Shown here: one piece after another, positions 26,745-64,000 of the stretch
Layout: the number at the start of each line of letters is the position of its first letter
How positions within the stretch are numbered: position 1 is the first letter of the stretch
Source of the DNA: Strobilurus pachycystidiatus
Lineage: Eukaryota > Basidiomycota > Agaricomycetes > Agaricales > Physalacriaceae
NCBI GenBank assembly: GCA_019915135.1
Contig: JAHLMK010000008.1
Location: 1,612,001 to 1,676,000 of the forward strand
Direction: 5' to 3'
Length of the DNA: 64,000 bases
Translations under genes and position numbers: made by a program
Notes under the pieces: model-generated
The model's input: only the letters and a program-made list of their open reading frames with translations
Told to the model about the DNA's origin: nothing
Database searches by the model: none

Positions 26745-28009
26745 ATGCACCCTTACGCATCTGCATCTGGACGCCGATCTCGGCGTCTATCCCAGCAGGA
26801 CACTGCTGCCTATGATGGTATTTCGTCTGCTCATCATACGCAGTTCCTTCATTGACTTCGGCTTCAGAACAAGAATGGGAATCGGAATACAGACTTGTCG
26901 ACAGTCCGACCATCAGTGCGCCATCACCGGCGTCCTCGGCATCATCGTACTCGACGGCTCCCGGACCAACGCGTCGCCGCACCAAGCGGGATGAAACCCA
27001 TGTCCCGCGTCCGCCGAATGCCTTCATGCTCTACCGTTCTCACTTCTGGAAAGAGATGAAGGATATCATTGCCGAGCGGGATCATCGAGAGATCAGCCGG
27101 ATGTGTGGTGCGCAGTGGAAGGCGCTCTCCATCGACGAGCAAGGTCACTTCAAGCATCTCGCGCAGCAGGAGAAGAAGCGCCATGCGGAGAAATACCCCG
27201 ATTACAAGTACGCTCCCGCGAGTCGCGCTGGAAAGGCACAGCGGAAGAAGACGAAGAAGGGCTCGGACGAGGAACAGGTTCGATGCCAGCTCCTTGCTGA
27301 TATGATCATGCGCGGCGTTCATGGCGATGATCTCGAGGGAGCGGCGCGGGATATCGACGACCATGCTCAATCACCTATGCCCCGCTCGGTGCCGCCCCTC
27401 CGCTCGGAACTCACACGCGACGCTCAGGGGCCGACGTTCTCCACACCGACATCCTACCATGAACCGCAACTTGTCCACTCTTCCGAATCATCATTTATCC
27501 CGACCGAGCACATACCTGCTCTCGACTTGACTGAGTCCTCACTGGTCGAGGTTGGTCCTCTTTACCGCTTTCATCCTCCACTTACTGACTCTCCATCTCA
27601 GAACGCATTCATGTCAAACGCACCGATGATGACTACGGGTTTTGATCCACTGCTCTCGCAGATGTACTCTCCCCAGGAGACCGTCGAGCAATCCTACTCC
27701 TGGTTTAGCCCGACTGGGGAGTATGCCCCAGAGGCCTCGACGGCGGGTCTGTCGTACTCTTATGAGCCTGAGTTGCAAGGCACTTTCCCCCAATATACCT
27801 CCCATGTGGCCTACGTCAACCAGCCATTTCTCGACGGTCATGTCGATGGTTACTACTCCAGCGATGGTACTTACACCAACTACGGTAGCTGGCCATATGA
27901 CTCTTCAGCCAGTCTGTCAGCCTACCAGTACCCAACGCCAGTGGACCCCACCACCGCTCAGCCCATGTTTCCTTTCGCCTGCGTCGAGACTCCCCCAGAT
28001 TTGAAGTGA
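26745..28009 (+). CDS. HMG-box transcription factor (MATA-HMG type)
   Basis: Nuclear DNA-binding protein with one HMG box. The box starts HVPRPPNAFMLYRSHFWKEM (near 26996), continues REISRMCGAQWKALSIDE and ends at HAEKYPDYKYAP, about 70 residues. The signature PNAFMLYR is that of the mating-type/Ste11/Rox1 class. A basic stretch KAQRKKTKKG follows, then a long region rich in Ser, Pro and Tyr, probably for activation. The main exon is open to TGA at 28007-28009. It has no ATG near its 5' end, so a short upstream exon is needed. The best candidate starts MHPYASASGRR at 26745 and is joined across an intron of about 59 nt ending near 26840; a 26-nt alternative is less likely. Role in mating or development is inferred from class only. 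Confidence 0.83.
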
Positions 28010-35542: not shown

Positions 35543-36637
35543 TTAGATGATTTTGCTGTAGAATTTCAAGAGATCCTCCCAATTGAACTCTTCAGGCTTC
35601 TGGTGGAAGGCTGTCAGTAGCCTTTCTCCCTCGGGCTCCCCGTCCTTTTCGCCCCACAAGTAGAACTTTTGGATCCCCATAGCCAACATCTGAGCGTCCT
35701 CCTGGCTCAGCATGAAACTTCCGTCCGCGCTGGTACCCGCAACAGTGGGTGTGATTTCGGCCCGCAACAAAACGACGCCGTGGCTCTGGGCGAGGTCGGT
35801 GTAATGTGTTAGAATCAAGTACGGAGTCGCGAAGGAATTCCGCATTTTGTACTCCTGGAGAGGCGTGAATAGCACTGTGGACACTCGTGGGTTAGGGGTG
35901 GTCTGGTGTTTGGACGAGGCGGCAGCGAAGGGATCATCGTTTGCAGAAGGAGGCGGTGGTGCGTGATGGAATCCCCACTCCATGAAGAAGAATTCATGGT
36001 TTATCTTCTCCGGGTTCGCGGGCTCTTCGGGATCTGGACGCGGCAATGGTACAACAAAGCAAGGATGTTTCTCGCCAACCGCGGCCATCTTGTTGTAGAT
36101 GTCATTGGGGATGGCAGCGCATAGGTAACCACGGCCAGTGCCTTCCGAGCGGGATGCATGGTAAGCTGTCCATAGCGCAGATACTTGTTCGGTTGTGGCG
36201 GTCGCAACGCGGGACAGACGAAGAATATCAGACAAAGGCTAAGCAAGGGAAGGTCAAACAAGTTAGTGTAATGTTGTACATGGACTGACCTTGACAGGCG
36301 GACCGTCCTTGCGAGACCCCGAACGCGCCTCCGGCTTGTCTGGGGCACCAGTGGATGTTGGAGGTTTCTGGAGGCCAGGAAGCGATGCTGCTTGAGCGCG
36401 TTGTTCTTCCTTGAGCCTTTCTAGCGATTGTTTCCGCAGTTCCTCGGCACTGAGTCCCGTCCTGAACGCGACCGCATGAGCCTCCGGCTTGTCCGAATGA
36501 AAAGAGTGCCATTACTGAAGAGCTTTCTGCCGTATTTTTTCTGCGTACACTGCCTCATAAGACTTGAAGCGCCGTGGAGATGAGCCCGGTACACGGCGGA
36601 AAGAGACGCGGGCGATAGACTGGCCCACTCTGTACAT
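35543..36637 (-). CDS. ATP11: F1-ATPase assembly chaperone ATP11/ATPAF1
   Basis: Mitochondrial matrix chaperone that binds the F1 beta subunit during ATP synthase assembly. ATG at 36637 (MYRVGQSIARVSFRRVPGSS) gives an Arg/Ser-rich presequence lacking acidic residues. Exon 1 joins exon 2 at ALQ|TGLSAEELRKQSLERL, then a third exon begins PLSDILRLSRVATATTEQVS. Family strings are GYLCAAIPNDIYNKM, HPCFVVPLPR, FFFMEWGF, VLFTPLQEYKMRNSFATPYL, LILTHYTDLAQSHGVVLLRAE and MGIQKFYLWGE. The end is LLKFYSKII with TAA at 35543-35545. An insertion rich in Pro/Ala/Ser (HHAPPPPSANDDPFAAASS) sits between two conserved strands. The gene looks intact and starts about 100 bp from the tRNA gene. Confidence 0.9.
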
Positions 36638-44611: not shown

Positions 44612-46412
44612 ATGGCACTCGACAACGCCTCCCACTCAGCCGGCACGCCGTCCTCGTCCGGCGCGCCGCTCTACTCCCTCCCGGCCCTCTTCCCCTTCGC
44701 CTCCTCCGAGTCATTCACTTGGCTCTACACCACGGTCGCCGTTCTCGCCTCTCTCCTCATCCTCGAACAGTCCGTCTATCGATACAAAAAACGCCATCTC
44801 CCTGGCTCGGCATGGACTATTCCCCTCATCGGAAAGTTCGCAGACTCAATGAAGCCAACGATGGAAGGCTACATGAAGCAGTGGGAGTCTGGTGCTCTCA
44901 GTGCAATCAGCGTTTTTAACATGTCCGTTTCACGCGCTATGGCTGTCAAGTCGTCACTCATACCCGCTTAGCTTTATCGTCATGTCCTCGACGACAGAGT
45001 ATTCCCGCAAAATCCTCAACTCGCCTACATACGCCGAGCCCTGCCTTGTTCACGCTGCCAAACAGGTTCTTCTCCCGCAGAACTGGTAGGGCATCACCAT
45101 ATCCCGCCCGTTCTCATGCTCACCGTGATCGACCAGGGTCTTCTTGACTGGCAAAGAGCATGTCGACTACCGCCGTGGTCTCAACACTTTGTTCACCCGG
45201 AAAGCCATGGGGTACGTTTGGTTTAGGTTCCATGACTCTGCCGTTCTCTAATCATCTTCAGTCTCTATACCTCTGTCCAGGATGCTGTCACGCGTAAGCA
45301 CTTCAAGGTCTGGCTTTCTGAAGCTGCCAAGTCCGATGAGGCACAGCCAATCATGATGCCCGCCCGTTTCCTCAACATGGACACCTCTTTGCGCGTCTTC
45401 TGTGGCCAGTACCTTCCCGATCACGCCACAAAGGAGATCAGCGACAACTACTGGCACATTACTGTCTCTCTCGAGCTCGTTAACTTTCCTCTGGCTCTTC
45501 CTGGCACCAAAATCTACAAGGCCATTCAGGCGAGAAAGGCTGCCATGATCTGGCTGGAGCTCGCTGCCAAGAGAAGTAAGGAAGCCATGGCAGCGGGTGC
45601 CGAGTCGACCTGCCTCCTCGACGAATGGGTACGCGTCTTCTCGGATCCTTCGTGGAAAGGCAGGCGGGATTACAGTGACACTGAGATGGCTATGGTCGTC
45701 TTATCCTTCCTGTTTGCTTCCCAGGACGCCATGAGCAGTGGTCTTATCTACGGTTTCCAGCATCTTGCCGACCATCCAGAGATCTTCCAAAAGGTCCGCG
45801 AAGAGGTGGAACGCGTCCGTGGGGGCGACACTGAGGCACCCTTGACGCTTGAGATGCTCGACGAGATGGTCTACCTCCAGGCTTTTGTGAAGGAGAGCAT
45901 GCGACTTGTTCCCCCAGTCACCATGGTTAGTCCGACAACGTCGTTCCTTGGCATGTGGCTGACAGACCTTTAGGTACCTTACAAGACGACTAAAGCATTC
46001 CCCATCAGCGACGATTACACCGTACCTGCCAACAGCATGGTTATTCCTTCCTTCTACAAACCTCTGCATGATCCCGAAGTGTACCCCAATCCCGACGTCC
46101 TCGTACCTGAACGGTGGTTAGACCCCAAGAGCTTGGCCAACTCCAACCCAAAGAACTATCTTGTCTTTGGTGCTGGTCCCCACAAGTGCATCGGTCAGGA
46201 GTATACTCTAATGAACATTGCATTGGTACTGGCCAGCGCCGTTGGTACCTTTGATTTCAAGCACGACGTGACACCATTAAGCCACGAGATTGAGTAAGTC
46301 CTCCCCGAACTATCGGGCTGCTGATGTGCTGACTCTTTTGCGCAGGATTATCGCAACACTATTCCCTAAAGATGGATGCCGACTGAAGCTCACGCCTCAC
46401 GCGAAGCCCTAG
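44612..46412 (+). CDS. ERG5: Sterol C-22 desaturase, cytochrome P450 CYP61
   Basis: ER-membrane P450 that introduces the C22-23 double bond in ergosterol synthesis. Start MALDNASHSAGTPSSSGAPL at 44612. One membrane segment, FTWLYTTVAVLASLLILEQS, lies near residue 40 and is followed by the proline-rich hinge LPGSAWTIPLIGKF. The I-helix reads FLFASQDAMSSGLIYGFQ, where CYP61 has FASQDA. K-helix ESMRL carries the ExxR motif, and PERWLD is present. The haem-binding loop FGAGPHKCIGQEY has the axial Cys near 46189. The stop is TAG at 46410-46412. Exons join cleanly across introns near 44920, 45090, 45215, 45930 and 46300. All diagnostic CYP61 strings are present, so the gene appears functional. Confidence 0.94.
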
Positions 46413-46701: not shown

Positions 46702-49700
46702 TCAGATTCTACGGACAGTCAAGGGTAAGGAGCTCGGACCCTCTCCCTTCACTCGAGGTCTTATTACAAAACTTTGGAAAGGCTCGATGTCACGATGACA
46801 TGTGAAGGCAAACTGCCTCAACAGTGTAATCACAAGTGCCTAGGACCCTTGATCAAGAACCACCACCATGTGGGGTTCGGCGTTCAGCCATTGCAAGACT
46901 GGCTCGAGGGATCTAACTCGACGACTGTCGTTTTGGATAATTGGACGTTCCCGCACCTTTGCTGGTCGGGAAAAGTAGTCTGAAGTCGCAGGCTACGTCG
47001 GGACTCCCGACCCAGGCTAAGAGCCACTCTACTCGTTCCATAGAGGAGAGTCTACAAGCTCTAGAATACCCACAATGGATAACTACGTGTTCTCTTCTCA
47101 AGTCCGAGGGTGAACAGAGTCGGCGCCCAACGCCAAACAACCCCGTCCGCCAACAAAGAAGCGCGACCAGTCGGGTGGCCCAAACGGGACCTCAACGCGC
47201 TCAGCGCTGAGATGACTCAGCTGTGCATCGACTCGTGACAAGTCGATGCACAGATGACTAAGCCCAGACTTAACCTCCTGCCTTCGCTGCGTACGACGAC
47301 TCACTGCATCGGCGGGGAGTGCGTGGCAGCTTTTGGCCCGCGCTCCCCTCAAAAGCTGATCAGGAGTCCATGACCGAGAGTAGCGGCGACTTTCGGCCCA
47401 CTTTCAATCCTCCGGGACATGGTCTCAACTCGCACCGCACCACTGGAAGCAACAGACCGCGCAGGGAGCGCACACCGTAGCCCGCGGTCATACGCACGCG
47501 TCGCATAGCGGAAAACATGGCGTCATCACAAGGCAGGACCCTTCGCTCTTTGAATGAACAAAGAAGCAGCTAGACAAAGAACTCAGTGAGCCTTTTAAGC
47601 CGTCGTGGTGTCGTTGCATCGCTCATCACACCCACCCAGCTGCCCATCCTGTCGTCCCCTTCGCCAACCGCGCAACCGTCCAATCCCTCGAGCAAGAAGC
47701 ACAAAGGAGCTTCTGGTCAGGCCAACCCAGTGGTGCGTGAATAGTGTCTCACTGCTCGCCTTTCCTTATATCCCACATAGAACAACGAGCACGAAGAGAC
47801 CGACGACGAAGAGACCCGCCCCCGCAAAACCCCTAGACCCTTCCAAACCCCCATGCCCTTCATTCTTCCTGATCCTCGCGACACAACGGGGCTCCCGTCC
47901 TCGACGAAACCGTTCCCCTATGACCTGAATGCAGCATCCGACGATGACAAACCGTCCATCATGCCCAACCCGCCCTCATCCTGCTACAGCGAAGGCTCGT
48001 ACCCGAGGATCTACATCCCATGGAACCACCTCACTGCAGGCTTTCCTGAAACCCTGCGCAAATCCATCGCAGAGAGCCCGAAGAAGTTCATCGCTGCCGT
48101 TCCCTTCGGCGCAGGCGCTAAATGGAATGCTGATAACCGACGCGCCCATATCACCCTCAAAGATTTTCTAGAGGGCTTCGACTTCCCTGATAAGGGAAAA
48201 CCCATTGTCTTCTTCCCAGTCGAGCCAGACGGCGAACGCCCCAAAAAGGACGACGGCGACAACAAGAAACGTCGCAGTGCCTTCGACAAGCCATGGCCAC
48301 TCATTGTCACCGGCATCTCCGACGACTTCATCTCCTTTCTCGCATGGCAACAGACGTTTCCCGTTCCCTCTCGCGAAGTGTGGAACTTCGTAACCTTCGA
48401 CCCCGAGCGGGTTCCATGGATCATCGGCGCATACCGCGGCAACGTGGTGGTCAACGATGCCGAAATCATCGCAGAGGCTCTGGCATGCCTCAAGACCGAG
48501 GTTTGGAGGAATAACGCGATCCAGAACATGGTCAAGCGAATCACCCAGGAGCAGGGCAAGTCGGGTCAAGCCACCGAGCTCACGGTGGACATGACCAAGT
48601 CGTGGCGACTGGTCTACGTCGAGACCAAGAACCTCACCGACGACAAAGGCCCAGTGCTCATGCTCATGGGCGAACCCATCTCCACCTCCATCGACCACTT
48701 CCGCGCCCTGGCAGCGCTTATTCGCAACATCAAGGTGCGAGTCAACTACCAACTCCTTCTCGGTGTCGACAAAGTTATCGGCTGTGACTGGTGCAAGAAC
48801 AGTACCCATCCAAGCCATGACTGCCCATTCCCGAACATTGACGAGGCCTGGTACGGCCCTACCCACACCGAGCTACGCCTTCGCCTTGAGAGAGCTAACG
48901 CCTCCAACAACCCCAAGCAGAAGGATGTCAGGTCAGAGGGTGGGAGTCGCAAGAAGCAGAAGCGAAGCGCAGAGGGCGGCTCTGGATGGACTGAGGTTCG
49001 TCGCAGCAGGAAGTGATACGCGCCAAGTTCCCAATACATAATACGAGCAAATTTCATTCTCATTTAAACCCACTTCCCATCGCTCGAACATTCCCATGTT
49101 AGTAAGTGGTCCCAATGGTGAGATTGGGGGATAGAGAGTCTGCGGGAGTTTCCCGCCTCTATCAAGCATTCTGGAGATGGATCTACTGACGATTTGAAGA
49201 GGTAAAATTGGACAGGTAAGCGAAGGAAGGCTATACAAATTCTAATACCCACAGGACTTGGTGCAGCCTGCGACGACTCCCAGCGTCTCCCTTCTCACTA
49301 AGGGAGGCCGAATGGGAGTCGAACCACCTAGCGCGCCTTGGTCCGGCAATCCGGGCGCGCGAAACTAACCCTGCTACTAACAGTTTTTCTAATAGATCAG
49401 ACGAAAACTCCAGCACGCCTCAATCCGGTACAGGCCTCGCACTCTCTAGTCGGGGCTCTGACGCACCCGTTGGTCACCCTCAGCAAAATGACGGAGGTGC
49501 GAGTAACTTCAATGGGGACCCAGCCTCGGAACTCTCGGAGGAAGGGGTCGTACCGTTGACGTCTCAAGGTCCCCCGGACAATGAGGAGAGTATACGGGCT
49601 GCATCTCAGACTTCATCAGGTGAAGATCCAGAGAATACCACGCAAGTCCGCGTTGGTAGTCGGCGACGTCGTACTCGACACCGCCGTCAGTCGAGCATCT

Positions 49701-52700
49701 CGACACACTCGCATGACTCTCGTCCATCCCAAGACGAGTCCTCACAGATCGAGAGTGGCCAGGCCACGAACCAAGTAGAGGACGGGCCAGGCTCATCCTT
49801 GAACGGTTCCATGACACCAAGCTCACAAGATATGAGCGAGACCCCCTCCACCCAAGCTGTGGTGGAAAACAGACGCAACAAACGAGCTCAGACAGCCAAG
49901 TTCTTGAAGTCGTCCATAATGGTAGCATGTCTAAACCTAAACGGATTCTTCCATTCGGGGTCAGGTAATAGCCTACAGAGAAGCAAATGGACCCATGTAA
50001 ACCAGCTAGTTCGAGACAAGCGCATGGGGATCCTGGTGGTTTCTGAGGCGCACATGACAGAACAACGAAGGAGTGATCTTGAACAGCTATTTGGCAAGCG
50101 GTTGAAGATCCACTTCACCTCTGACCCAAACGAACCAACGAAGAGAGCCGGGGTGGCAATAGTTCTGAACAAACAATTAACGAGATGGCAAGAAGCTAAA
50201 ACCAAGGTGATCATCCCTGGTCGAGCTATGCTTCTTAGGACACAGTGGCGAGATAGTACACCTGTTACAATATTAGGCATCTACGCCCCAAATGTCAGTG
50301 AATCCAACGCCAGAGAAAGTGCCGAGTTCTATAAGACAATTCGAGAATTCCTTGCCGCTCACCCGAGATGGAAACCAGACCTGCTAGGAGGAGACACAAA
50401 CTTTGTAGAAGATCCCCTGGATCGCCTTCCAATGCGCTCCGAGGCTGGAGAGGTACTGCGAGAGTTCGACGATCTCAAATCCCAGCTCGGTCTTCGGGAT
50501 GGATGGCGAGAAACTTACCCAGACCAAAGAGCCTACACATTCCAAGGCACAAGATCCAACAAAGACGCGGAGACAGGAATCACTACTACAATGGCGTACC
50601 ACTCACGTATTGATAGGATATATGCCACCAGCAAGATTCTTGACTCAGCAAGACAATGGAAGATCACACCGGTGGGAATCCCTGGAGTCGACCACGATAT
50701 GGTCTCGGTACAAGTCGTTCACGAAGATGCACCCATAACAGGCAGAGGCAGATGGGCATGTCCCGATAGTATGACGAAGGATCGTCCTCTGGCCAAGGTC
50801 TGGAAAGCACTAGGTATCGAGGCCCAGTCCGAAGTCACCTCTATCAAGCAAGCAGGTCGCACGACGGCTAAAAACCCTCAACGAGTGTACCATAAGTTCA
50901 TAACAGCTGCCATGGAAGCAGCCAAAGACCGAGAACGTGTGGTGAAGTCTCAACAAAATAAAAAACAGGCGGATCTCGACAGAAAACTCACTGAAGTTTC
51001 TCGGAATAGTATCCTCTCAGATATAGACCGCGCCACAAAGATGGCCGGACTGAAATCAGAACTTCGTGCAATTGCGAGATCCAAACACGAAACATCACGC
51101 AAGTTTATAGCGGCTAGAAATCGCCTGGAAGGGGAAACAGTATCAAAGTACTATTTCCAAGCAAACAAGGAAGCTAAGCCCCGCGACATAATCAGAGCCG
51201 TAGAGATCCCACATACAGACACGCCTCGGGATGCGATCCAACCTCAAGCAGAGCCACGCTACGAGAAGTGGTCACCCAACATGGCTGAGAGGTTCAGAGA
51301 CTATCATAAAGACCTACAATCGGAAGAGCTAAACATTGATGAAGCTGAGCGGGAGCGCATCATGAACGAGATCCTCGATAAAACTACAGTCGAGCCTACC
51401 GAGGCAGCGAAACAATCAATGCGCGCAAGACTGAGCTACGAAGAAGTCCTTAAACCAGTCAAACTCTCAAAGAGCGACTCAGCTCCAGGAATCAACGGCG
51501 CCACGAACAAGTTCTTCAAAGTACTTAACGATCGATGCCTCGAGGACCAAAGAAAGGAAGCACCCGCCTTCGACATAGTTCAGCTCCTACTAGATGTCTT
51601 CAATGACATCGAAGAATTTGGGGTTGAAGAAGCAACCCACTTCTCAGACGGATGGATGTGCCCGATCTACAAAAAGAACGACAGGTGTAGAATAGCAAAC
51701 TACAGACCTATCACTCTCCTCAACTCAGAGTATAAGCTTATGACCAAGGCTCTCTCAATCAAGCTCGTAACAACGGCGCCGGAACTGATCCACAGAAACC
51801 AAGCTGGGTTCATTCCAGGACGCCACATCACAGACCAGACTCAGCTCATTCGAATGATCATAGAGCACGCCGACATGACAGAACAGAACGGAATGATTGT
51901 GGCCCTTGACCAAGAAAAGGCGTATGATAAAATTCGTCATGACTATCTGTGGACTGTCCTCAAGACATACGGTATCCCGAATGAGTTCATCTCGACAATT
52001 AAAACTCTATACCAGTATGCGGAGACAAGAGTAATGGTCAACGGCTTTTTGAGCAAACCATATCTCGTCACACGAGGTGTCAGACAGGGAGACCCACTAT
52101 CCTGCCTGCTGTTTGATATCGCAATTGAACCATTGGCAGAAGAGTTACGACGTTCGAATCTGAAAGGTCTATCAGTGCCGGGATCAGAAGAGCGACTCAT
52201 AGCTAACCTATTTGCGGATGACACTACAACGTTCCTCCATGAAGACGATGACTTCTCCGAACTCATGAACATTCTCGACAGGTGGTGCATCGCAAGCGGG
52301 GCACGATTTAACGTTGCAAAGACACAAATCATCCCGATCGGAAAACCAAGCTTCCGTGCGCAACTGTTAGAATCAAGACGAATGAAACCGACGCATGCTC
52401 CAATCCCACACAACATTCAAATTGTGGATGAAGGGGATGCAATTCGAATTCTGGGAGCGTGGTTTGGCAATGAAATCCCTACAGAGACAGCATGGGCGTC
52501 AGTCATGGAGAAAATAGACAAGAGCTTAGAGCACTGGGAATACTCACATCCGTCCGTTCCTGGTCGCAGAATCATAGTCCAAGTTGTCATTGGTGGTTTC
52601 ACGCAGTACCTGACAGCGGTTCAAGGTATGCCAATGAGTATTGAAGCTCAACTCACAAAACGTATGAGAAAGTTCATATGGGAGGGTAAGACGAAGAACC

Positions 52701-55006
52701 TAGTCGGACTTGACTACCTCCAAGCCCCCAAATCACAAGGCGGTCTTGGCATACTTGATCTAAAAGCGCGTAACAAAGCAATCAGTGTGATGTGGCTCAA
52801 GTCAATGTTAGCGGAAACAAAACCTACTTGGGCCGCCTTCGCACACGACATCATAGCACGCTCTAAACTAGCAGCTGAGAAACACATCCCTCACGAAACC
52901 AAATCGAATATATTCCTGCAATCATTCAGCGTCAAGAAGGCTGTCCTGCCAAAAGTGCTGGCCGACTTAATGGAGACAGCGAAGGAGACAGGCCTGCGCC
53001 CCGAGGGTAGAGCTTTCTCGAGGGAGATCATCAACCAGCGACCCATATGGTATCACGCAGAGGCGAACCCAAAAATACGCCTTCTGGTGCACTCGGCGGC
53101 AAGTAAGTGTCTTCGAAAAAATCATAACGTGATGACAGTAGGAGACGCCGTAGATTTGGCAGAATGGCTAGACGATCCTAATCACAACTCAGAACACAAG
53201 CCTCACCTATGCACATGTTATATATGCGAAGCCTTAAAACAGAACCGGGCCTGTAAGACGCCACATGCGTGCATGATGCGCGCAAAGGATCTCCTCGACA
53301 CACTACCACCCAAGTGGGACCCAAGATTCCTCCTCCCCGAAGACTACGAAGAGGAACCGAAGAGTCAGGAGGAGGGGTTCGAGTTTGATAGACGAGTGAC
53401 AACTCACGGTAACCTGTCTGATATATTCCGAATCTTCACAGAAGGCAAGACATGTAATCGCCTTCCGGACATGAGAATGGATGCCGAGAACCGCAATACA
53501 GCCATCGTTGCAGCAACGGATGGATCTTGTCTCGAGAACGGCTCTGATGAAGCAAGAGCGGGAGCAGGAGTCTATGCCTACGGCTCGGAGTCAAGCTTGG
53601 AAGTTGCTCTCCGGATACCAAACAACCTAGCACAAACGAACCAAGTAGGTGAGGCAGCAGCAACAGCAATCTTGGCTGAAAGGGTAGACTTGAAAACAAA
53701 GCTACACAACGACACGGACTCACTGTACGTCCTAAAACACCTATCCACATCGCTCCGGAAAATGGAGGATGCAGGCTATATTGGGGTGCCAAACAGAGAG
53801 ATTCTCCAGACGATGGTGGCGCGCCTACGTCAGAGAAAGAACACAACCACCCTGAAATGGGTAAAAGGCCATAGCGGGCATGAAGGGAACGAAATGGCAG
53901 ATATGCTCGCAAACGAAGGAGCCCTCAAGGACTCCGGCGACGAAATTGATTTGTCCATACCAGAAACACTGAAAGTGTCAGGTGCTTCACTGGCAAAGAT
54001 GACGCAGAAGCGAGCATACACGGCATTCCGACAACGGTCACTAGCAAGCCTCTCTAAGCGCAATCGAACAGAAATCAACATGAGGCTTACTCAAGACAAA
54101 GCAAAAGAGATATTCGGGGAGCGCCCTACAGAGCAAGCTGTCTGGAAATCACTCATGCACAAGGACCTAGACCGAAACGCGCGATACTTTCTCTGGATGC
54201 TGATGCATGAGGCGTACAAAGTAGGCCGAAAATGGCTAACTGCCCCGCCTGAATATCAACCCCGAGCGTTGTGCGCGCACTGCAATGACGAGCTAGAATC
54301 AATGGAACACATACTCATTCGGTGCAACTCACCTGGCCGGGAGCTGGTATGGAATATGGCCCGAGAGCTTTTAGACCTGAAATTGATCGAATGGCATGAG
54401 CCCTCGATAGCGTCTATTCTCAGCTGCGCAAGTCCCTCGTTTAAAGCATGGAATGGAAAGCGCGAAGCAGGGAAGGAACGATTCTATCGTATTGTGATGT
54501 CGACAGCAAGTCATCTGATATGGAGTTTGAGATGTGAACGAGTGATCCAAAAAGAGAACGCACCCTTCACGGAGCAACAGATCCGGAATCGCTGGCTGAA
54601 GAAGATCAATGATCGGATAGAGAGTGATTGCAGGATGACGCACAAGTCGTTCGGGAAGAGAGCAATCCCTAAAGGCGTGGTATTAGACACGTGGAAGGGA
54701 TCGCTGAAAGACGAGCACACACTTCCTCCTGACTGGACGGAAAAGAGCGGGGTTTTAGTGGGTACAACGTCACAGGCATCAACGACGCAAGGTGAGTATG
54801 GGGACGGCGATGAAGGAGGATGAGGTTGATGCCAAATTGTGATCGGTCTTGAGTCCCACACGGATCAGTGCGAAAAGCATTTCCTCGCGGTGAAATATTA
54901 TCTTTGAAAGGAGTACTAACATCGGTTCGGTTCAAATCCCGAGCCCCTCTATGCTGCACGTTGGAAGCGACTATGTCGCCGGACCGCCTCTGCACTAGCA
55001 TCCACC

Positions 55007-55038
<32 letters not shown>

Positions 55039-56918
55039 CAAGTGCCTATTGCGTGGCGCGTAAGTTGAATCGATCTAGCAGGGAGTATCAATCCGAGTAC
55101 GTACTTTAACCTCGCACAAGGCAAAGGCCTTCCCGACGCAGGAGCGTGGTCTGTCGCTCAAAGTTAGGCGGCCGGGGAACACGGAAGACGGATGTGAGAC
55201 GCACCCTTCGCTGAACGCAAAAATCTCGCGTTGATGTCTGATCCCGTATCGTTTGCGTTCCAGCCACCGGTTGGGTCGGAACTGCTCTGAGTCCGAGCCC
55301 CAGACTTGGGGATCCGTCTGGATGATGTTCACGGGAATTTCTAGTATGGTGCCCTTGGGAATGACAAGACTTCGTTCCGAAGTACCAGGAATGGGCTCCG
55401 AGAGCGGGACGGTGATGGTTTCCTCTGCCTATGAAAAGGTTAGTCTCAATCGTAAAGTGTTATAAGTGAGCTTGACACGCACCTGGTGATGGTTTTCTAG
55501 TATGGGTGGGTGTAAACGAAGCGTCTCCTTGATGACAGCGTCCAAGAGAGGGAACCCGTTGTTTAACGAGTCAAATGAAGGATCATCAACAGAATCTGTG
55601 ACTTCTTCGCGAAGTTGACGCTGAACGTCTATGTTTTGAGCTAGCTCGTAGAGGACCCACTTGAGAATCAATGAGACTTTAAGACAAGCGAAAGCGAAGA
55701 GAAACACTCACGGAAATGGTTGCTGAAACGGGTTCGTACCCCGCAGAGATGACTGTACGCATCTGGGAGACAATTTGTTCCTCGCTCATCGAGTCGCTAG
55801 ACTTTACTGTTGAGAGATTGGGGTGAGCGTACATACCTATAGTGACAGAACGAACTTACGCATGACGGACAGTATATTCTTCCCTTCTTCCCCCACAGTC
55901 TTTGCATCATTCCACATCTTCTTGGATATCGCACCCATCTCCTGTTTGGTCTTCCTAATCATTTTGCCTTTCTCGCCTATCGTTAATATCGCTGGAAAGA
56001 TCCAGAACAGCGCGCGCATATAGAAAGACGATAGCTTGTTCTCGTTGTTTGTTAGCCCGTCAAATGCCTCGGCTAGTGAGTGGGGCTCTCCGTCAAGACA
56101 CTTGAAGTCATGCGAAAAGGCCGCGCGACCGACTGTATCGAGACTAGGAAGAGATCAACACCGTGGTGCAAGGCTGACATTGAGACTTCCTTACGCGTAT
56201 CGACCGGCCCAATTGGTGACTTCTATGTCGACCTCTTCTCGTGGACTTTGGTCAAGAATCTTAGCCCACTGGGACGCCAATCTGGCAGATGTCTCATAGA
56301 AGACATGTGTCATATCTCGGACGGATTGCGCGCTACACAGGGATCGCGTCAGTCAGGGCCAACAGAGCGCCGTCAGACGTACTTGAGTGCTGGAGCTACA
56401 CATCGTTTTTGCTTCTCGTGGGCCGCCTTACCTTAACATGTATGTCAATACAATCATGCTCGCCGGTCTCAGAATCACTAACCTTCAATCCACAGGATGC
56501 CCTCACCAGTCGTGGCCTTGAACCATTCCCGAACACCCCGTGGCTTGGGGAACTCGTAGATGCCGTCGCCAAGAATATAGCTCACGGCAGACGGGTCAGT
56601 GATCGACAAGATTTGATGCTAATGCCAAGCATTAGTTATGAATACCAAGCGGAGAACGAGGGAACTGGCTACCCCAAAAGCCCCAGTAAACTTGACGACT
56701 TTGCCGTACTGACTATGCCAGTTGACATAGTGAGAGCCTGGTCGACTGTTGTATAGAAGCCATTCTTCACCCCACAATAGCGAGGACGACCGAGGACCAG
56801 GAATGTGCTTCAACGTCCTGCGAACGGAGAGCAGGTGGGAGACTGATCGCACAAGTCGAGCGAAGAGGAATGCAGCGCAGAGATAGAACGCTCGGTTCAA
56901 AAGCAAGGAGGGAGACAT
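46702..56918 (-). CDS. Cytochrome P450 with its last intron occupied by an 8.2-kb LINE
   Basis: ATG at 56918 (MSPSLLLNRAFYLCAAFLFA, membrane anchor). Exons join cleanly: hinge IPGPRSSSLLWGEEWLLYN, EGKAAHEKQKRCVAPALK, WAGRYA|LDTVGRAAFSHDF, I-helix ISAGYEPVSATISWVLYELA, K-helix IKETLRLHPP, PNRWLE, and the haem loop FSEGPRSCVGKAFALCEVK with axial Cys. The last exon, 46839-46702, encodes ALVITLLRQFAFTCHRDIEP and ends LPLTVRRI with TGA. It lies on the far side of the LINE. Before insertion the last intron was 59 nt (55046-55104). The LINE target site covers the acceptor TAG, so a copy remains at each side. Splicing to the distal copy (46840) would restore the exact protein with an 8265-nt intron. 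All other exons are intact, so the insertion is probably recent. Clan is that of Agaricomycete P450s near CYP5150/CYP512; the substrate is unknown. Confidence 0.88.
46830..46842. repeat. LINE target-site duplication, 5' copy (contains P450 splice acceptor)
   Basis: TCACAAGTGCCTA, identical to 55036-55048. On the minus strand it reads TAG followed by GCACTTGTGA, i.e. acceptor plus the first ten bases of the last P450 exon. Confidence 0.93.
46843..47852 (+). promoter_or_regulatory. LINE 5' leader with presumed internal promoter
   Basis: About 1 kb without a convincing gene. Full-length LINEs carry an internal promoter here; no specific motif was identified. Confidence 0.45.
47853..49016 (+). 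CDS. LINE ORF1, nucleic-acid-binding protein
   Basis: 387 residues from MPFILPDPRDTTGLPSSTKP. The central part (IYIPWNHLTAGFPETLRKSI, VPFGAGAKWNADNRRAHITL, TFDPERVPWIIGAYRGNVVV) is typical of basidiomycete LINE ORF1 products. A retroviral-type zinc knuckle CDWCKNSTHPSHDC (C-X2-C-X4-H-X4-C) lies at residues 311-324. The C-terminus is very basic (RKKQKRSAEGG, RRSRK). Such proteins coat the element RNA. The frame remains open upstream of this ATG but offers no better start. Confidence 0.88.
   Translation: MPFILPDPRDTTGLPSSTKPFPYDLNAASDDDKPSIMPNPPSSCYSEGSYPRIYIPWNHLTAGFPETLRKSIAESPKKFIAAVPFGAGAKWNADNRRAHITLKDFLEGFDFPDKGKPIVFFPVEPDGERPKKDDGDNKKRRSAFDKPWPLIVTGISDDFISFLAWQQTFPVPSREVWNFVTFDPERVPWIIGAYRGNVVVNDAEIIAEALACLKTEVWRNNAIQNMVKRITQEQGKSGQATELTVDMTKSWRLVYVETKNLTDDKGPVLMLMGEPISTSIDHFRALAALIRNIKVRVNYQLLLGVDKVIGCDWCKNSTHPSHDCPFPNIDEAWYGPTHTELRLRLERANASNNPKQKDVRSEGGSRKKQKRSAEGGSGWTEVRRSRK
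49811..54823 (+). CDS. LINE ORF2: endonuclease, reverse transcriptase, RNase H
   Basis: Multifunctional retrotransposon protein. The frame is open from 49220 to 54823, but its first ATG is at 49811 (MTPSSQDMSETPS), giving 1670 residues. Domains in order: endonuclease (VACLNLNGF, VVSEAHM, LLGGDTNF, SRIDRIYAT, GVDHDMVSVQV); reverse transcriptase (IYKKNDRCRIANYRPITLLN, GFIPGRH, ALDQEKAYDKI with catalytic Asp, GVRQGDPLSCLLF, active-site FADD at 52211-52222); RNase H (ATDGSC, QVGEAAAT, NDTDSLYV, WVKGHSGHEGNEMAD, with the D-E-D-D residues present); and a C-terminal CX2C...HX4C finger (CAHCNDELESMEHILIRC). FADD rather than YADD is seen in L1/Tad-type elements. No stop or frameshift interrupts these domains. 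How ORF2 is translated after ORF1 (stop at 49014-49016) is unclear. Confidence 0.95.
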   Translation: MTPSSQDMSETPSTQAVVENRRNKRAQTAKFLKSSIMVACLNLNGFFHSGSGNSLQRSKWTHVNQLVRDKRMGILVVSEAHMTEQRRSDLEQLFGKRLKIHFTSDPNEPTKRAGVAIVLNKQLTRWQEAKTKVIIPGRAMLLRTQWRDSTPVTILGIYAPNVSESNARESAEFYKTIREFLAAHPRWKPDLLGGDTNFVEDPLDRLPMRSEAGEVLREFDDLKSQLGLRDGWRETYPDQRAYTFQGTRSNKDAETGITTTMAYHSRIDRIYATSKILDSARQWKITPVGIPGVDHDMVSVQVVHEDAPITGRGRWACPDSMTKDRPLAKVWKALGIEAQSEVTSIKQAGRTTAKNPQRVYHKFITAAMEAAKDRERVVKSQQNKKQADLDRKLTEVSRNSILSDIDRATKMAGLKSELRAIARSKHETSRKFIAARNRLEGETVSKYYFQANKEAKPRDIIRAVEIPHTDTPRDAIQPQAEPRYEKWSPNMAERFRDYHKDLQSEELNIDEAERERIMNEILDKTTVEPTEAAKQSMRARLSYEEVLKPVKLSKSDSAPGINGATNKFFKVLNDRCLEDQRKEAPAFDIVQLLLDVFNDIEEFGVEEATHFSDGWMCPIYKKNDRCRIANYRPITLLNSEYKLMTKALSIKLVTTAPELIHRNQAGFIPGRHITDQTQLIRMIIEHADMTEQNGMIVALDQEKAYDKIRHDYLWTVLKTYGIPNEFISTIKTLYQYAETRVMVNGFLSKPYLVTRGVRQGDPLSCLLFDIAIEPLAEELRRSNLKGLSVPGSEERLIANLFADDTTTFLHEDDDFSELMNILDRWCIASGARFNVAKTQIIPIGKPSFRAQLLESRRMKPTHAPIPHNIQIVDEGDAIRILGAWFGNEIPTETAWASVMEKIDKSLEHWEYSHPSVPGRRIIVQVVIGGFTQYLTAVQGMPMSIEAQLTKRMRKFIWEGKTKNLVGLDYLQAPKSQGGLGILDLKARNKAISVMWLKSMLAETKPTWAAFAHDIIARSKLAAEKHIPHETKSNIFLQSFSVKKAVLPKVLADLMETAKETGLRPEGRAFSREIINQRPIWYHAEANPKIRLLVHSAASKCLRKNHNVMTVGDAVDLAEWLDDPNHNSEHKPHLCTCYICEALKQNRACKTPHACMMRAKDLLDTLPPKWDPRFLLPEDYEEEPKSQEEGFEFDRRVTTHGNLSDIFRIFTEGKTCNRLPDMRMDAENRNTAIVAATDGSCLENGSDEARAGAGVYAYGSESSLEVALRIPNNLAQTNQVGEAAATAILAERVDLKTKLHNDTDSLYVLKHLSTSLRKMEDAGYIGVPNREILQTMVARLRQRKNTTTLKWVKGHSGHEGNEMADMLANEGALKDSGDEIDLSIPETLKVSGASLAKMTQKRAYTAFRQRSLASLSKRNRTEINMRLTQDKAKEIFGERPTEQAVWKSLMHKDLDRNARYFLWMLMHEAYKVGRKWLTAPPEYQPRALCAHCNDELESMEHILIRCNSPGRELVWNMARELLDLKLIEWHEPSIASILSCASPSFKAWNGKREAGKERFYRIVMSTASHLIWSLRCERVIQKENAPFTEQQIRNRWLKKINDRIESDCRMTHKSFGKRAIPKGVVLDTWKGSLKDEHTLPPDWTEKSGVLVGTTSQASTTQGEYGDGDEGG
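55007..55035 (+). repeat. LINE poly(A) tail
   Basis: 29 uninterrupted A residues directly before the 3' target-site copy. The uninterrupted tail suggests a recent insertion. Confidence 0.95.
55036..55048. repeat. LINE target-site duplication, 3' copy (contains original P450 splice acceptor)
   Basis: TCACAAGTGCCTA, identical to 46830-46842. It keeps the original acceptor, 59 nt from the donor. Confidence 0.93.
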
Positions 56919-58044: not shown

Positions 58045-60455
58045 ATGCCAAAACGTAGCAGCTCAAAGAAGCCAGCTTCGCCCCGGAGACTCGCTACCAA
58101 AAAATCCCGGGAAAACGGGGACATGCGACCTGCTTCGAAGGATTCCATGGCTCATTCCTCATCTCTTCTCAGTGCTCAGGTCGACCCCAGGACACCCATA
58201 TCAGCCCGATCCTATCACGCTGCCGACCGACTGGAAAATGACGCGGAGGAAGGTCTCGAAATGAGTCTTCTCGGTGACGAGGAGCGTAGACAGGCGTCCC
58301 GCGGCCTCGACGGCTACGGTGACGATCACAATGACATGACCAAGCCGCCCATGTCGGACAAGGACAAGCGGTCCATGGTCCTTTTGTGTGTTCTATGTGC
58401 GTCCTCATTCGGTTCAGCGTGACGGCCCGCTGACTGGCCCGCTAGACCTTATCCAAGGAGTTCCCGTGCGTTCATTTTCGTGTCACTCGCGGGTTACGTG
58501 TTAACAAGACGTTCTACAGTTGGGCCTCGCGTTGGGTGTGTCGTGTCGTGTCAGCCTTCCAGTCGGCGCCTCCTAACCCGACTTGTTCTCCAGGCTCCGT
58601 TCCCTTCCTTCTCAAAGATCACCTGTCATACTCCCAACTAGCCACCTTCGCTCTATCAAGCTACCCGTATTCTCTGAAGCTCCTCTGGTCACCTATCGTC
58701 GACTCCGTCTATTTCGTTTCCATCGGGCGACGCAAGTCATGGATCATCCCAATGCAACTGACAGTCGGGACACTGATGCTGTACATATCCTTCAACGTTC
58801 AGCGGCTCATGGACAATGTAGGGGCTGTATCTCCTCCTTGTCAATTGCGTCTCAACTTGTCGCGTCAAGGCTGCCGATTATGTTTACGAACTCACCTTCG
58901 TTTTCACTTCCCTCGTCTTCATCTCTGCCACCCAAGGTTCGTTCTTTCTGTCTGTATCAGTCCCTCTCAGTCACGCTTACTTAATTTCTGTCTAGATATC
59001 GCCGTTGACGGTGCCGCTATCATCGTTCATTTTTCAGCAGAGCTCTGATGTTTTGATTTGCACAGGTTGGGCTCTTACTCTATTATCGCAAGAGAACCTA
59101 TCGTACGCGTCGACATGCCAAACTATCGGTCTCAATACCGGCTACTTCGCTTCTTTCACCGTGTTCCTCGCATTCAACAGCGTCGAATTCACGTATGTGT
59201 CTCCGAACATACTCCGCCTTCGAACTGATCGTATTCCGGTAGTGAGCGTTGGGGTGTCCCGCATCTAACATTGAGCGCGTATCTCAAGTTCTGGGGTGTG
59301 GTGTGTTACATAGTCACACTGTGGCTTCTTGTCTTCAAGAAAGAAGTACGCGATCTTGACAGAGTCGATGTTAACTATCGTGACTGACCCTCGGTACAGG
59401 ACAAGGAACCAGCTAACGACGCAGACATGACTATAACTGGAGTCTACAAGACTATTTGGTCTATCTGCAAGCTTAAACGTGAGATTGCAGGAACGCGCGT
59501 ACATACCAGTGCTAAACCTCTCGCAGATATTCAATCACTCATCATAATGCATTTCTTCGCGAAACTGGGTTTTGCGGCTAATGATGCGGCGACGTCGCTC
59601 AAGATGGTCGAAAAGGGCTTCAAACGTGAAGAGCTGGCTGTAGCGGTTCTTATAGATTTTCCGTTCCAGATTGCTGGAGGATGGCTCGCTGCAAAGTGGT
59701 CTCGCGGAGACAAACCCTTGCGGCCGTGGGTGTATGCGTTCCTCCCTCGTCTAGGGTTTGGCTTGATCGCCACTGCCATTGTTTACTGGTTCCCGACACC
59801 TCCGATTTCCCGAGCTTTCTTTGTGTTCTTAATCGTGCACACCATATTGGCCTCCTTCTCAAGGTATTCAACTCTGCCGATATCCCCGCTCACTCTGACG
59901 GTAACCACAGCACTGTACAATTCGTCGGTATATCTGCCTTCCACACGCGTGTCTCGGATCCTCTCATTGGAGGCACTTACATGACTGTATGCGAAAGTCA
60001 AGTCCCCGATACCTTGAACTGACTTTTGCACAGTTATTGAACACGTTCACTAATCTCGGAGGAACATGGCCGAAATATTTTGTTCTCAAGAGCGTCGACA
60101 TGTTTAGCGTGGCGACGTGCAAAGTCACCGAAGCCGGAACCGAAATTGTTGTTAAAGGTCAGGAGAACTCATCTTTACACTGTTGCGTTTGCTAACATCC
60201 GATGCAGCAGCGGAATGTGTCTCTGACCACGGTAAAGCTATGTGTGCGGATTTGAACGGCCAATGCCTGACAGAAACGGATGGATACTATTCTGTTTCTT
60301 TGATCTGCGTGATCTTTGGTGTCATCTTTCTGTTCGCATACACCATTCCAACAGCGAGGAAGCTTACAGGTCAGTTGTGTGCTCGAGACGCCATTGCTTG
60401 CGCTGATTATCATCCAGAACTACCATTGTCTGCCTGGAGGATCAAGATGGAGTAA
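58045..60455 (+). CDS. Acetyl-CoA transporter (SLC33A1/AT-1 family)
   Basis: Multi-pass membrane protein of the ER/Golgi that imports acetyl-CoA for lumenal acetylation. Start MPKRSSSKKPASPRRLATKK at 58045, a cytosolic Ser/Lys/Arg-rich tail of about 110 residues. The core starts MVLLCVLYLIQGVPLGLALG (joined across introns) and contains PFLLKDHLSYSQLATFALSS, YPYSLKLLWSPIVDSVYF, GRRKSWIIPMQL, FVFTSLVFISATQDIAVDGW, IMHFFAKLGFAANDAATSLK, FQIAGGWLAAKWSRG, VGISAFHTRVSDPLIGGTYM and LLNTFTNLGGTWPKYFVLKS, all characteristic of the family. Around 10 to 12 hydrophobic segments can be counted. The end is LSAWRIKME with TAA at 60453-60455. Introns are short and phases agree, so the gene appears intact. 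Confidence 0.92.
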
Positions 60456-60688: not shown

Positions 60689-63600
60689 ATGAGCACCTTA
60701 CATTTTGGACCCGAATGGATGCGGGCGAAACCAGCTACACCAAGGACCCTGGCGCCAGAGCCGACGCCGCCAGCCCAGCTCAACGCGTCTACCTACTCAG
60801 CACTCGTCTCCCCAGCAGCGCCGTCGCAGCCGGACGATCGCGATGATGCCCGTCCCTTCCGATACTCCAAGGACGAATTGCTGCAGATTTTCCGGGATGG
60901 CGCAGGCCACACTGGGCTTGGCCTCGAAGTGGAGCGCTGGGACGGCGTCGTGCGGGAAGTCGGCGCGGAGCCGACGTCTCTACGCGAAATGGGGGAGACG
61001 GAAAAGAAGGTGCGTGCGGCCCGTCGACGAGCTTTGACTGTCGCGTTAGCAGCACGGTGGCTGACCTCGTGCTGTCCAGCTCTTTTCCGGCTCGTTGAAT
61101 TCTGACCTTCGCCGCCGCCAATCAACGGATTATCTTTCCCCGTTATCCACTCAGAATCTGGCCTCCGAGCGGCCGCGGCTCAACCATTCCACGTCCGCGA
61201 CAGCGAGCAGTCCTCTTCGAGATCGCTTTGGGCAGCTGGGGCGAAGACGAGGCGAGAGCACAGGTACGCCGTTTTCCTTCTCATTTTCTCCGACAGCCAC
61301 CGAGACTTGTCTGCTGCAGATCAGATACCTGGCACCCTGCCCCGAAAGCTCTCGCTGTCGTCCATCCAGTCTCCGATGTCCCCACGCGATCCCGGAATGC
61401 AATCCCCTCGGGTGGCGCGGATGGGCTCTGGCTTTGACGGTGGTGTCTTGGGCGGTGGCGGTGATTCGTGGTCTGCTCGGCGGCGCGCTTCCGAGGGCAT
61501 TGTCAAGACGCCCGGAATCGTGCATCGCGATCCCATTGGCGACCTCGCAGATGAAAAGATCAAAGAGGAGGACGAAACCTCAGTTCAGCCCTCTGACAAT
61601 CCCCACAAGGCCGAGAACAGTATCCCTCATCATAATCTCCACTCCGCGGCCTTGTACGAACCTGCCACTCAAGCGAGCGCGAACAACGCGCAAAACATCG
61701 AATCGTCCATGTCGCACCTCGCTTTGAGCCACGAAGTCAATCACAGCTCTTCTGCTTCTCCCGCGAATAGCTCAACAGGTTTCGGTCCACCGGGCATTCA
61801 GGACCTGACAGGCGTAGAGTGGTCTTATCTTGACCCACAAGGAAATATTCAAGGTCAGTTCAGTCATGTATTACCTTTGCCAGTCACATCCAAACGCACA
61901 TCCAGGTCCTTTCAGGGCCGATCTTATGCAAAAATGGTCTGACGATGGATATTTTACGGATGATCTGCTCATGAAGAGGACACGACTGGATACTGAGTGG
62001 ACTAGGGTGGCAGATTTGAAGCAAAGAGCAACAGGGCCAGTGTTCTTGACTCCTCATAGACCACCCCTTCCCCCCGGACTGCAACGTCATGATTCACCCA
62101 TGTTCTCCCCGGCTGAGGCATTCACACCGTTCCAACCCGCACCGATACGCTCGCTGCGCAGCTCAACCTTGGATTCGTTCCTCGGAGGTTCCAATCCGTC
62201 TGACTCTCCCTCCTCGTCTCTCGGTGCTGGCCGGTACAGTAATGGTTCTCCAGATCCCAGCGCATTCGGAGGACGTGCCTCCACCTTTGCGTCAGGCCCC
62301 GAACCAATAGGACGTCGAAATCTGTTTTACGAACCTTCCGGGCCACATTCCCAGCCCATACCCTCCCGCAGTGCTACCCTTGACAATAACTTCTCCACCT
62401 TCAACCAAACACCATGGCAGCAGCCTTCCAATGGTGTGATTGGCTCTGGGTTCGACCCTTCAAACTCGGGACGAGGCTCTGCCGACGCGATGCAGTACAT
62501 CCCATACCATGATGCGCGTATCCCATCGGGCTCACTGGGTGGTCCGCATGCTTTTGGGTCGCAAGATGGCCTTCAAGGGAATCACTACGATCCAGGGCGC
62601 TTCGATGAGAGGCGGATACCACCAACCGTGCAAGATTCATTCGCATCACAAAATCTATTCCCTGTGCAACCCACGTCTCATACTGTCCCTTCGCCTTTCC
62701 CGGTGCGAGTTCCTTCGCAGCCAGTCGCAGAGGCTACTGCCACTAGTTCACCATGGGGTAATGTCCAAGAGGCCACTCCCCCTCGTCAGCCTGGACCGTT
62801 CGACTCTAATTATCCAACCGCCTCAAATACCGTGGCCGATACGCCTTCACCCTGGGGCAACCCCGGCTCTCTCCCTCGCGCAGGTGTACCGAAACCCGTC
62901 GAGGCATCGCCTTGGGGTGCACCTCGTCCTTCTGCGGAGTCGCGTACCAATGCTGAAGGCATTCCCAATATGAATGGCAAGACAGATGCCGCGGCCCAAC
63001 CGCTTTCCTCGGCGCCTCCACCTGATGCTGTAGAACAGGCCTCCACCGATGCCTCAGCTTCCGTCAAAAGGTCCCGTGTGAAGGCCTCCCCTGCGCCCTC
63101 CAAACCTACACTCTCTGTACCTCAACCTGCAGTAGGACCGGCATCACCCGCGTCACCAGCTATTGCTGAGCCGGCCAAACCCGCATGGGCGAAGGCTGAT
63201 GATGCCAAGCCCTCCGGAGTGTCGTTGAGCTTGAGAGAGATTCAGGAGGCAGAGGAGAAGAAGGCAGAAGCTCGTAGAGCTGCGGAAAAGGAGCGGGAAC
63301 GCGCTCGGGCTAGTGCTGCTCCCCTCACACCTGCAGAGGATACCACACCCTTTACTTCGTCTTGGGGACTTCCCACTTCTCAGGTGGGTGTACGGACTCC
63401 CGCGAAGGAGACACCTGGATCAGCCGCAACTTCTACCGCACCCCCGGTATGGACTACTACTGCTAAGACACCTGTCACCAAGAAGACCATGAAAGAGATC
63501 CAGGAGGAAGAAGAGAAGCGGAAGAAACAAGCGGTGAAAGAAAGTATTGCTTCTGTAGCAGCGCGCCGAGGCTACGCAGAGACCACGTTCAAGGTTTGCC

Positions 63601-64000
63601 TAGCGTTTTCTCTACTATTCATCGACATTAATCATTCTCAGCAACCCGTACCTTCTCCTCAAATGGGTGGCGCCTGGACGACTGTTGGTCCTAGTGGAAA
63701 GACAACCCCATTGACCCCAGCTACTGTCCGACCAGCAGCACCTCCGACACCTGCAGCTGCGACACCTGCTCCTACTCCTCGTACGAATGGTACCACGGTG
63801 GCAAGTCGACCTCCTCCAGCGGCGCCAGCTCCGACGAAGCCCGCCACTCCCAAAATCGAAGAATACCCGGCAGCACCTTCCCACGACTTCCTCAAGTGGC
63901 TTAGCGAGTCCCTCCAGGGTCTGAACAAGACAGTCAATGGTACGCTGCAGAAACTTTGTGCCCATCACCAAATATACTCATGGTCGCTGTCACAGTCGAG
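60689..64000 (+). CDS. GYF-domain protein (Smy2/GIGYF-like), cut by window end
   Basis: Start MSTLHFGPEWMRAKPATPRT at 60689. Exons join at KK|LFSGSLNSDLRRR, EST|DQIPGTLPRKLS and NIQ|GPFRADLMQKW, all in frame. The N-terminal motif FRYSKDELLQIFRDG is seen in Smy2-type and GIGYF proteins. The GYF domain itself reads GVEWSYLDPQGNIQ then GPFRADLMQKWSDDGYFTDD, ending near 62010; this domain binds proline-rich PPGΦ ligands. A long disordered Pro/Ser/Ala-rich region follows, open from about 61908 to 63593. It includes charged coiled-coil-prone segments SLREIQEAEEKKAEARRAAE and KKTMKEIQEEEEKRKKQAVK. A further intron starts near 63940, and the last five bases of the window open another exon. Role in translational repression or ER-Golgi traffic is inferred from the family. 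Confidence 0.86.

Follow-up and report, generated by a model that had tools for sequence, protein, structure and literature searches.

The window analyzed here is a 64,000-nt stretch of contig JAHLMK010000008.1 of Strobilurus pachycystidiatus (positions 1,612,001 to 1,676,000 of the forward strand). It contains a P450 gene on the minus strand (56918-46702) that is split by a LINE. Without the LINE, the gene is 2,011 nt long and has ten exons and nine introns, whose borders were read by hand from the DNA sequence alone. Exons 1-8 (56918-56673, 56618-56483, 56431-56383, 56332-56195, 56143-55860, 55806-55712, 55659-55483, and 55428-55205) and introns 1-7 occupy 55205-56918, and are followed by exon 9 (55105-55150) and the original last intron (55046-55104). 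The original last exon (46702-46839; 138 nt, 45 codons plus a stop) lies beyond the LINE, just after an acceptor reading CCTAG. The nine introns measure 54, 51, 50, 51, 53, 52, 54, 54, and 59 nt; in two of them (56482-56432 and 55711-55660), the acceptor as read by hand is AAG.

Exons 1-9 form an open frame of 465 codons that ends in FALCEVK, and match Pfam p450 (PF00067) with an E-value of 1.5e-60 across profile positions 15-422 of 462. The gene also encodes the heme-cysteine motif FSEGPRSCVG, which spans intron 8; this 54-nt intron (55204-55151) interrupts the motif as FSEG|PRSC, with the remainder in exon 9, and was missing from the earlier description. The initial annotation took the gene to be intact through FALCEVK and the donor GTACGT at 55104, and the last exon to be intact to its stop. 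Both statements hold, with phase 0 at the last intron and the last exon in phase. A paralog on contig 19 (L018) supports the position of the last intron. It carries a phase-0 intron of 58 nt there, following FAIIEFK, and its final exon can be aligned with the exon on the far side of the LINE (12 of 47 residues identical; pairwise E-value of 0.001). In another paralog (L017), there is no intron at that position and the reading continues. A genome search with the heme-region exon gave 14 matches including itself; the others share 29-56% identity with a part of the query, and no close paralog was seen among them.

A second P450 gene (44303-46411, plus strand) ends 432 nt before the 5' end of the LINE. 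It matches Pfam p450 in 45236-45970 (E-value of 4.7e-23) and has a FGAGPHKCIG motif, recognized by eye; a search of solved structures with it gave no match at 1e-10. We take it to resemble a sterol C-22 desaturase (CYP61/ERG5). Other open reading frames in the window have matches to HMG box (26816-28006, plus strand), ATP11 (35546-36238, minus strand), acetyl-CoA transporter (59388-59981, plus strand), and GYF (61818-63998, plus strand) domains.

The LINE, a non-LTR retrotransposon of 8,193 nt (46843-55035, plus strand), is antisense to the P450 gene and bounded by a target-site duplication and a poly(A) tail of 29 A (55007-55035, plus strand), which is read as 29 T on the P450 strand. The direct repeat TCACAAGTGCCTA occurs at 46830-46842 (distal copy) and 55036-55048 (proximal copy) with 13 of 13 bases alike; its length is 13 nt, or 15 nt when the count includes two A's that run into the poly(A). 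On the P450 strand (minus), each copy consists of the acceptor TAG and the first ten bases of the last exon, and the proximal copy then continues into the 29 T. The 13-bp duplication claimed initially, including its acceptor and ten exon bases, is thus present as described. In the assembly (51,781,917 bases in 61 contigs), the 13-mer TCACAAGTGCCTA is found twice on the plus strand and never on the minus strand. Because these two occurrences are the LINE flanks themselves, there is no empty allele carrying TCACAAGTGCCTA in the 51.8-Mb assembly. The tail and the 13-15 nt duplication are those of a non-LTR retrotransposon, as are the duplications of 16 and 17 nt in sister LINEs. The perfect duplication, unbroken poly(A), and open reading frames suggest that the insertion is recent.

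The coding content agrees with the identity and orientation that the initial annotation gave to the element. ORF1 (47781-49016, plus strand) is 411 aa from stop to stop, with a first ATG at 47853 (387 codons) and a CX2CX4HX4C knuckle recognized by eye; it has no match in Pfam or NCBIfam. ORF2 (49220-54823, plus strand) is 1,867 aa from stop to stop, with a first ATG at 49811 (1,670 codons), and has endonuclease-like, reverse transcriptase, RNase H, and zf-RVT regions. Pfam matches are to RVT_1 (E-value of 2.8e-34), RNase_H (3.7e-18), and zf-RVT (2.2e-6), and the best PDB match is human L1 ORF2p, in an alignment that covers residues 262-1188 (E-value of 1.1e-40). The RVT_1 and L1 ORF2p matches identify a reverse transcriptase of the LINE kind, and an RNase H after the reverse transcriptase is usual for Tad1 elements. 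At the N-terminus of ORF2, an apurinic-type endonuclease is supported rather than strong: the alignment to L1 ORF2p starts at residue 262, the match to an exodeoxyribonuclease III model reaches only 19.1 bits, under that model's cut-off, and there is no Pfam endonuclease match at 0.001.

The LINE family appears to be single-copy within a wider LINE group that is rich and partly intact. In searches of the assembly that skip very common words, the first 600 nt and last 600 nt of the LINE found no other long copy. Besides itself, the 5' query has seven matches of 41-80 nt, all to one stretch (query 347-424), and the 3' query has one other match of 70 nt. The stretch in the 5' region (47189-47266, plus strand) is a short palindromic repeat that matches itself in reverse; further copies with 78-88% identity are present in both orientations on contigs 1, 3, and 9. 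A genome search with ORF2 gave at least 26 matches including itself, an undercount of copies as 25 of 89 candidates were scored. Among the other matches listed, the best shares 43% identity with this ORF2 across residues 162-1853, and the highest identity is 47%, for a part only. Single-copy LINE families that act as a source of new insertions are described in a report on Marasmius oreades (PMC9674265).

Sister elements share the structure of the window LINE. Of the 25 other listed ORF2 matches, six were examined at their 3' ends, and each of these ends in a poly(A) run, 10-39 nt in length. A duplication partner was found for two of the three sisters tested (on C1 and C9; 16 and 17 shared nt), which puts these elements at about 8.46 and 8.66 kb versus 8.19 kb here, while the third (C1:5,480,052) has no partner nearby at 12 exact bases. 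The 5' ends of the two delimited sisters, CCCTTGGACAAGGACCACC and CCCCTTGGAATAGGACCACC, resemble that of the window LINE, GGACCCTTGATCAAGAACCACC, when compared by eye, suggesting that the copy in the window is probably full length. In one antisense frame, the sequence to the left of the C1 sister (L053:1-316) has no stop in any of its 104 codons, so this LINE may also be within a gene. Two other LINEs on C1 and C9 (L050 and L051) have 3' tails that are identical over 120 nt, a sign of recent activity in what would be another family of the same LINE group.

A SINE-like element of 288 nt (L012:1475-1762, minus strand; C6:1741768-1742055) lies between perfect 15-nt repeats and has a run of 27 A. 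It has matches to an A-box and a B-box 51 nt apart (four such pairs, including this one, occur in a 400,000-nt sample), and its 70-nt 3' tail is 86% identical to the 3' end of the window LINE. ARAGORN and Rfam reported nothing for it, and a genome search listed no matches besides the element and the 3' tail of the window LINE. It has the appearance of a SINE partnered with this LINE and, judging by that search, is apparently single-copy too.

The two copies of the acceptor differ in their upstream context. All nine P450 introns contain a YTNAY motif whose A lies 12-18 nt before the end of the intron. In the last one, which is 59 nt long and intact, the motif is CTTAC with its A at 16 nt, upstream of the proximal acceptor AATAG. 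The initial annotation had placed the original branch region next to the proximal acceptor, and both this motif and the 59-nt spacing are indeed kept there. Near the distal acceptor, it had seen only a weak GCTGAAC. That sequence is there, but TTGAT, whose A lies 14 nt before the end of the intron, was missed; it is the sole YTNAY in the last 60 nt and slightly favors the earlier idea of distal splicing. TTGAT may be a functional branch site and deserves to be kept as a candidate because intron 4 of the same gene likewise has no other YTNAY close to its end.

To describe branch motifs more widely, we used 444 intron-like units of 46-60 nt from a 264-kb sample, against 381 and 426 units in two controls; the sample is noisy and the comparison is one of frequencies without a significance test. 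CTTAC is commoner in the sampled units (4.7% vs. 1.0% and 2.6% in controls), CTGAC occurs in 9.2% (vs. 4.5% and 6.3%), and TTGAT is not enriched (3.8% vs. 4.2% and 5.9%). Among CTRAY motifs, 80 of 107 in the sampled units place their A 10-19 nt before the end, versus 35 of 75 for the acceptor control. Lengths of 48-55 nt exceed neighboring lengths but hardly exceed the acceptor control. Branch statistics from this pattern-based sample are usable but weak. A codon-based genome-wide intron set was set aside, as its first version had one unit and a stricter version had 45 units versus 12 and 36 in controls.

The initial annotation proposed that the LINE is possibly tolerated as an intron, and this is not supported. 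An intact last exon is expected after any recent insertion and the proximal acceptor is still complete. We rejected the intact exon as evidence of tolerance, since the perfect duplication, unbroken poly(A), and open reading frames are those of a young insertion. Fungi are concluded, in the work we cite, to use mainly intron definition (PMC2397502). With the donor, branch-like site, and 59-nt spacing kept, and introns recognized over a short distance, the proximal acceptor is expected to be used. After proximal splicing, the predicted reading (54995-55045, minus strand) is ALVI-FFFFFFFFF-GGC-stop, where the stop TAG (54997-54995) is also the first YAG downstream. This frame, ALVIFFFFFFFFFGGC-stop, keeps the heme cysteine and replaces the last 45 residues with 16; only the first four of these are original.

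We propose that a LINE from a group with many members in the genome inserted recently, and antisense to the gene, through target-primed reverse transcription. Nicking and priming would have occurred at the acceptor of the last P450 intron, where staggered nicks would have duplicated 13-15 nt and placed the acceptor and ten exon bases on both sides of the LINE. Splicing of the old 59-nt intron in primary transcripts would most likely still use the proximal acceptor, and the transcripts would continue into the antisense LINE. The protein would then end in ALVI-F9-GGC-stop, without the last 41 residues of the normal tail. Proximal splicing and a broken P450 after a recent LINE insertion is the most likely reading, and one that we hold with reasonable confidence; the allele is probably loss-of-function or strongly reduced.

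It is unlikely, although conceivable, that the duplicated acceptor instead allows a choice in which some or most P450 transcripts are spliced from the donor at 55104 to the distal acceptor at 46840, using TTGAT as a branch in the antisense 5' end of the LINE. A 59-nt intron would have become one of 8.3 kb in a single step, and would harbor an intact retrotransposon although introns in this genome are very short. As the initial annotation worked out, frame and lengths agree with an unchanged protein and an intron of 8,265 nt, for the frame and last exon are exactly preserved. There is also a precedent in Bassia AUX/IAA16, where a 3,466-bp retrotransposon is described as being spliced, with only a small change to the protein (PMC12277486). 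But the proximal acceptor is undamaged and first in line, and the distal intron would be ∼140 times longer than the introns of this gene (50-59 nt). The position of TTGAT, 14 nt from the distal acceptor, and its occurrence in intron 4 argue for a branch there, against which stand its lack of enrichment in the sample and rough arithmetic that gives a ∼15% chance of a YTNAY within a 10-nt zone. Moreover, YTNAY is absent from the 5' ends of both sister LINEs examined; therefore, the branch is not a family trait of the LINE group. A similarly doubtful outcome is that neither acceptor dominates and transcripts end in the antisense LINE or are spliced to a cryptic site. An antisense poly(A) can act as a pyrimidine tract, as in antisense Alu exons, and the YAG at 54995 is the first downstream of the proximal exon start, 51 nt on and after the T29. 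The proximal AG, however, comes before this YAG and follows the branch-like site with normal spacing.

Two explanations concern the insertion itself, and both are far less probable than the alternatives on splicing. A preference of the LINE group for splice acceptors, so as to be spliced out, could be read from the present insertion and from one of six sister sites (L049) that has a YAG in the 13 nt after the poly(A). But YAG is absent from either strand in the other five, and uniform insertion in the 2,011-nt P450 gene would place a YAG with exon sequence in 4.5% of 13-nt duplications and some exon-intron border in 10.8%. Therefore, one acceptor duplication among many LINEs needs no special cause, and acceptor targeting was set aside as having little support. 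An assembly artefact is the least probable of all, as the assembly searches gave no second long copy of the LINE ends that could have led to a repeat misjoin, and the expected duplication and tail are found at the two junctions.

The locus as it stands is a good example of a young insertional disruption, and shows that a target duplication can imitate tolerance on paper. Distal splicing, if true, would offer a snapshot, taken before decay, of a long intron arising via a retrotransposon on an existing acceptor. It would also be a natural test of acceptor choice between two copies that are identical over 13 nt, one with a short intron and the other 8.2 kb away. In a limited literature search, we found no report of a LINE that duplicated an acceptor and was spliced out, and we make no claim of absence.

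Among known systems, the window LINE is likened by domain content, rather than by tree, to fungal Tad1-type and L1-like LINEs. It shares with them an ORF1 with a zinc knuckle (by eye), an ORF2 with endonuclease-like, reverse transcriptase, and RNase H regions, a poly(A), and duplications of 13-17 nt. It differs in being without a close copy in the assembly, the identities of other listed ORF2s being those given above (43% for the best, none over 47%). Tad1 and Inkcap LINEs, some of them single-copy and active, are described in a mushroom (PMC9674265). Introners are reported with median lengths of 30-654 nt and from 5 to more than 2,000 copies (PMC9860276). Here, conversely, the intron pre-existed and the insertion is one full LINE of 8.2 kb; the many near-identical copies by which introners are recognized are missing, since searches of the assembly with the two LINE ends gave no second long copy. 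Outlaw in Bassia AUX/IAA16 exemplifies retrotransposon insertions that splicing largely removes; it is an LTR-type TRIM of 3,466 bp whose transcripts have been sequenced (PMC12277486), whereas the window LINE is known only as DNA, which also sets it apart from introners. Nevertheless, introners are likewise mobile elements with splice-site bases in the target duplication, and some are described as co-opting both splice sites from the insertion site (PMC9860276). Outlaw (PMC12277486) resembles the window LINE in being a young insertion in a gene, with a perfect duplication and altered splicing, the latter being a prediction for the window LINE.
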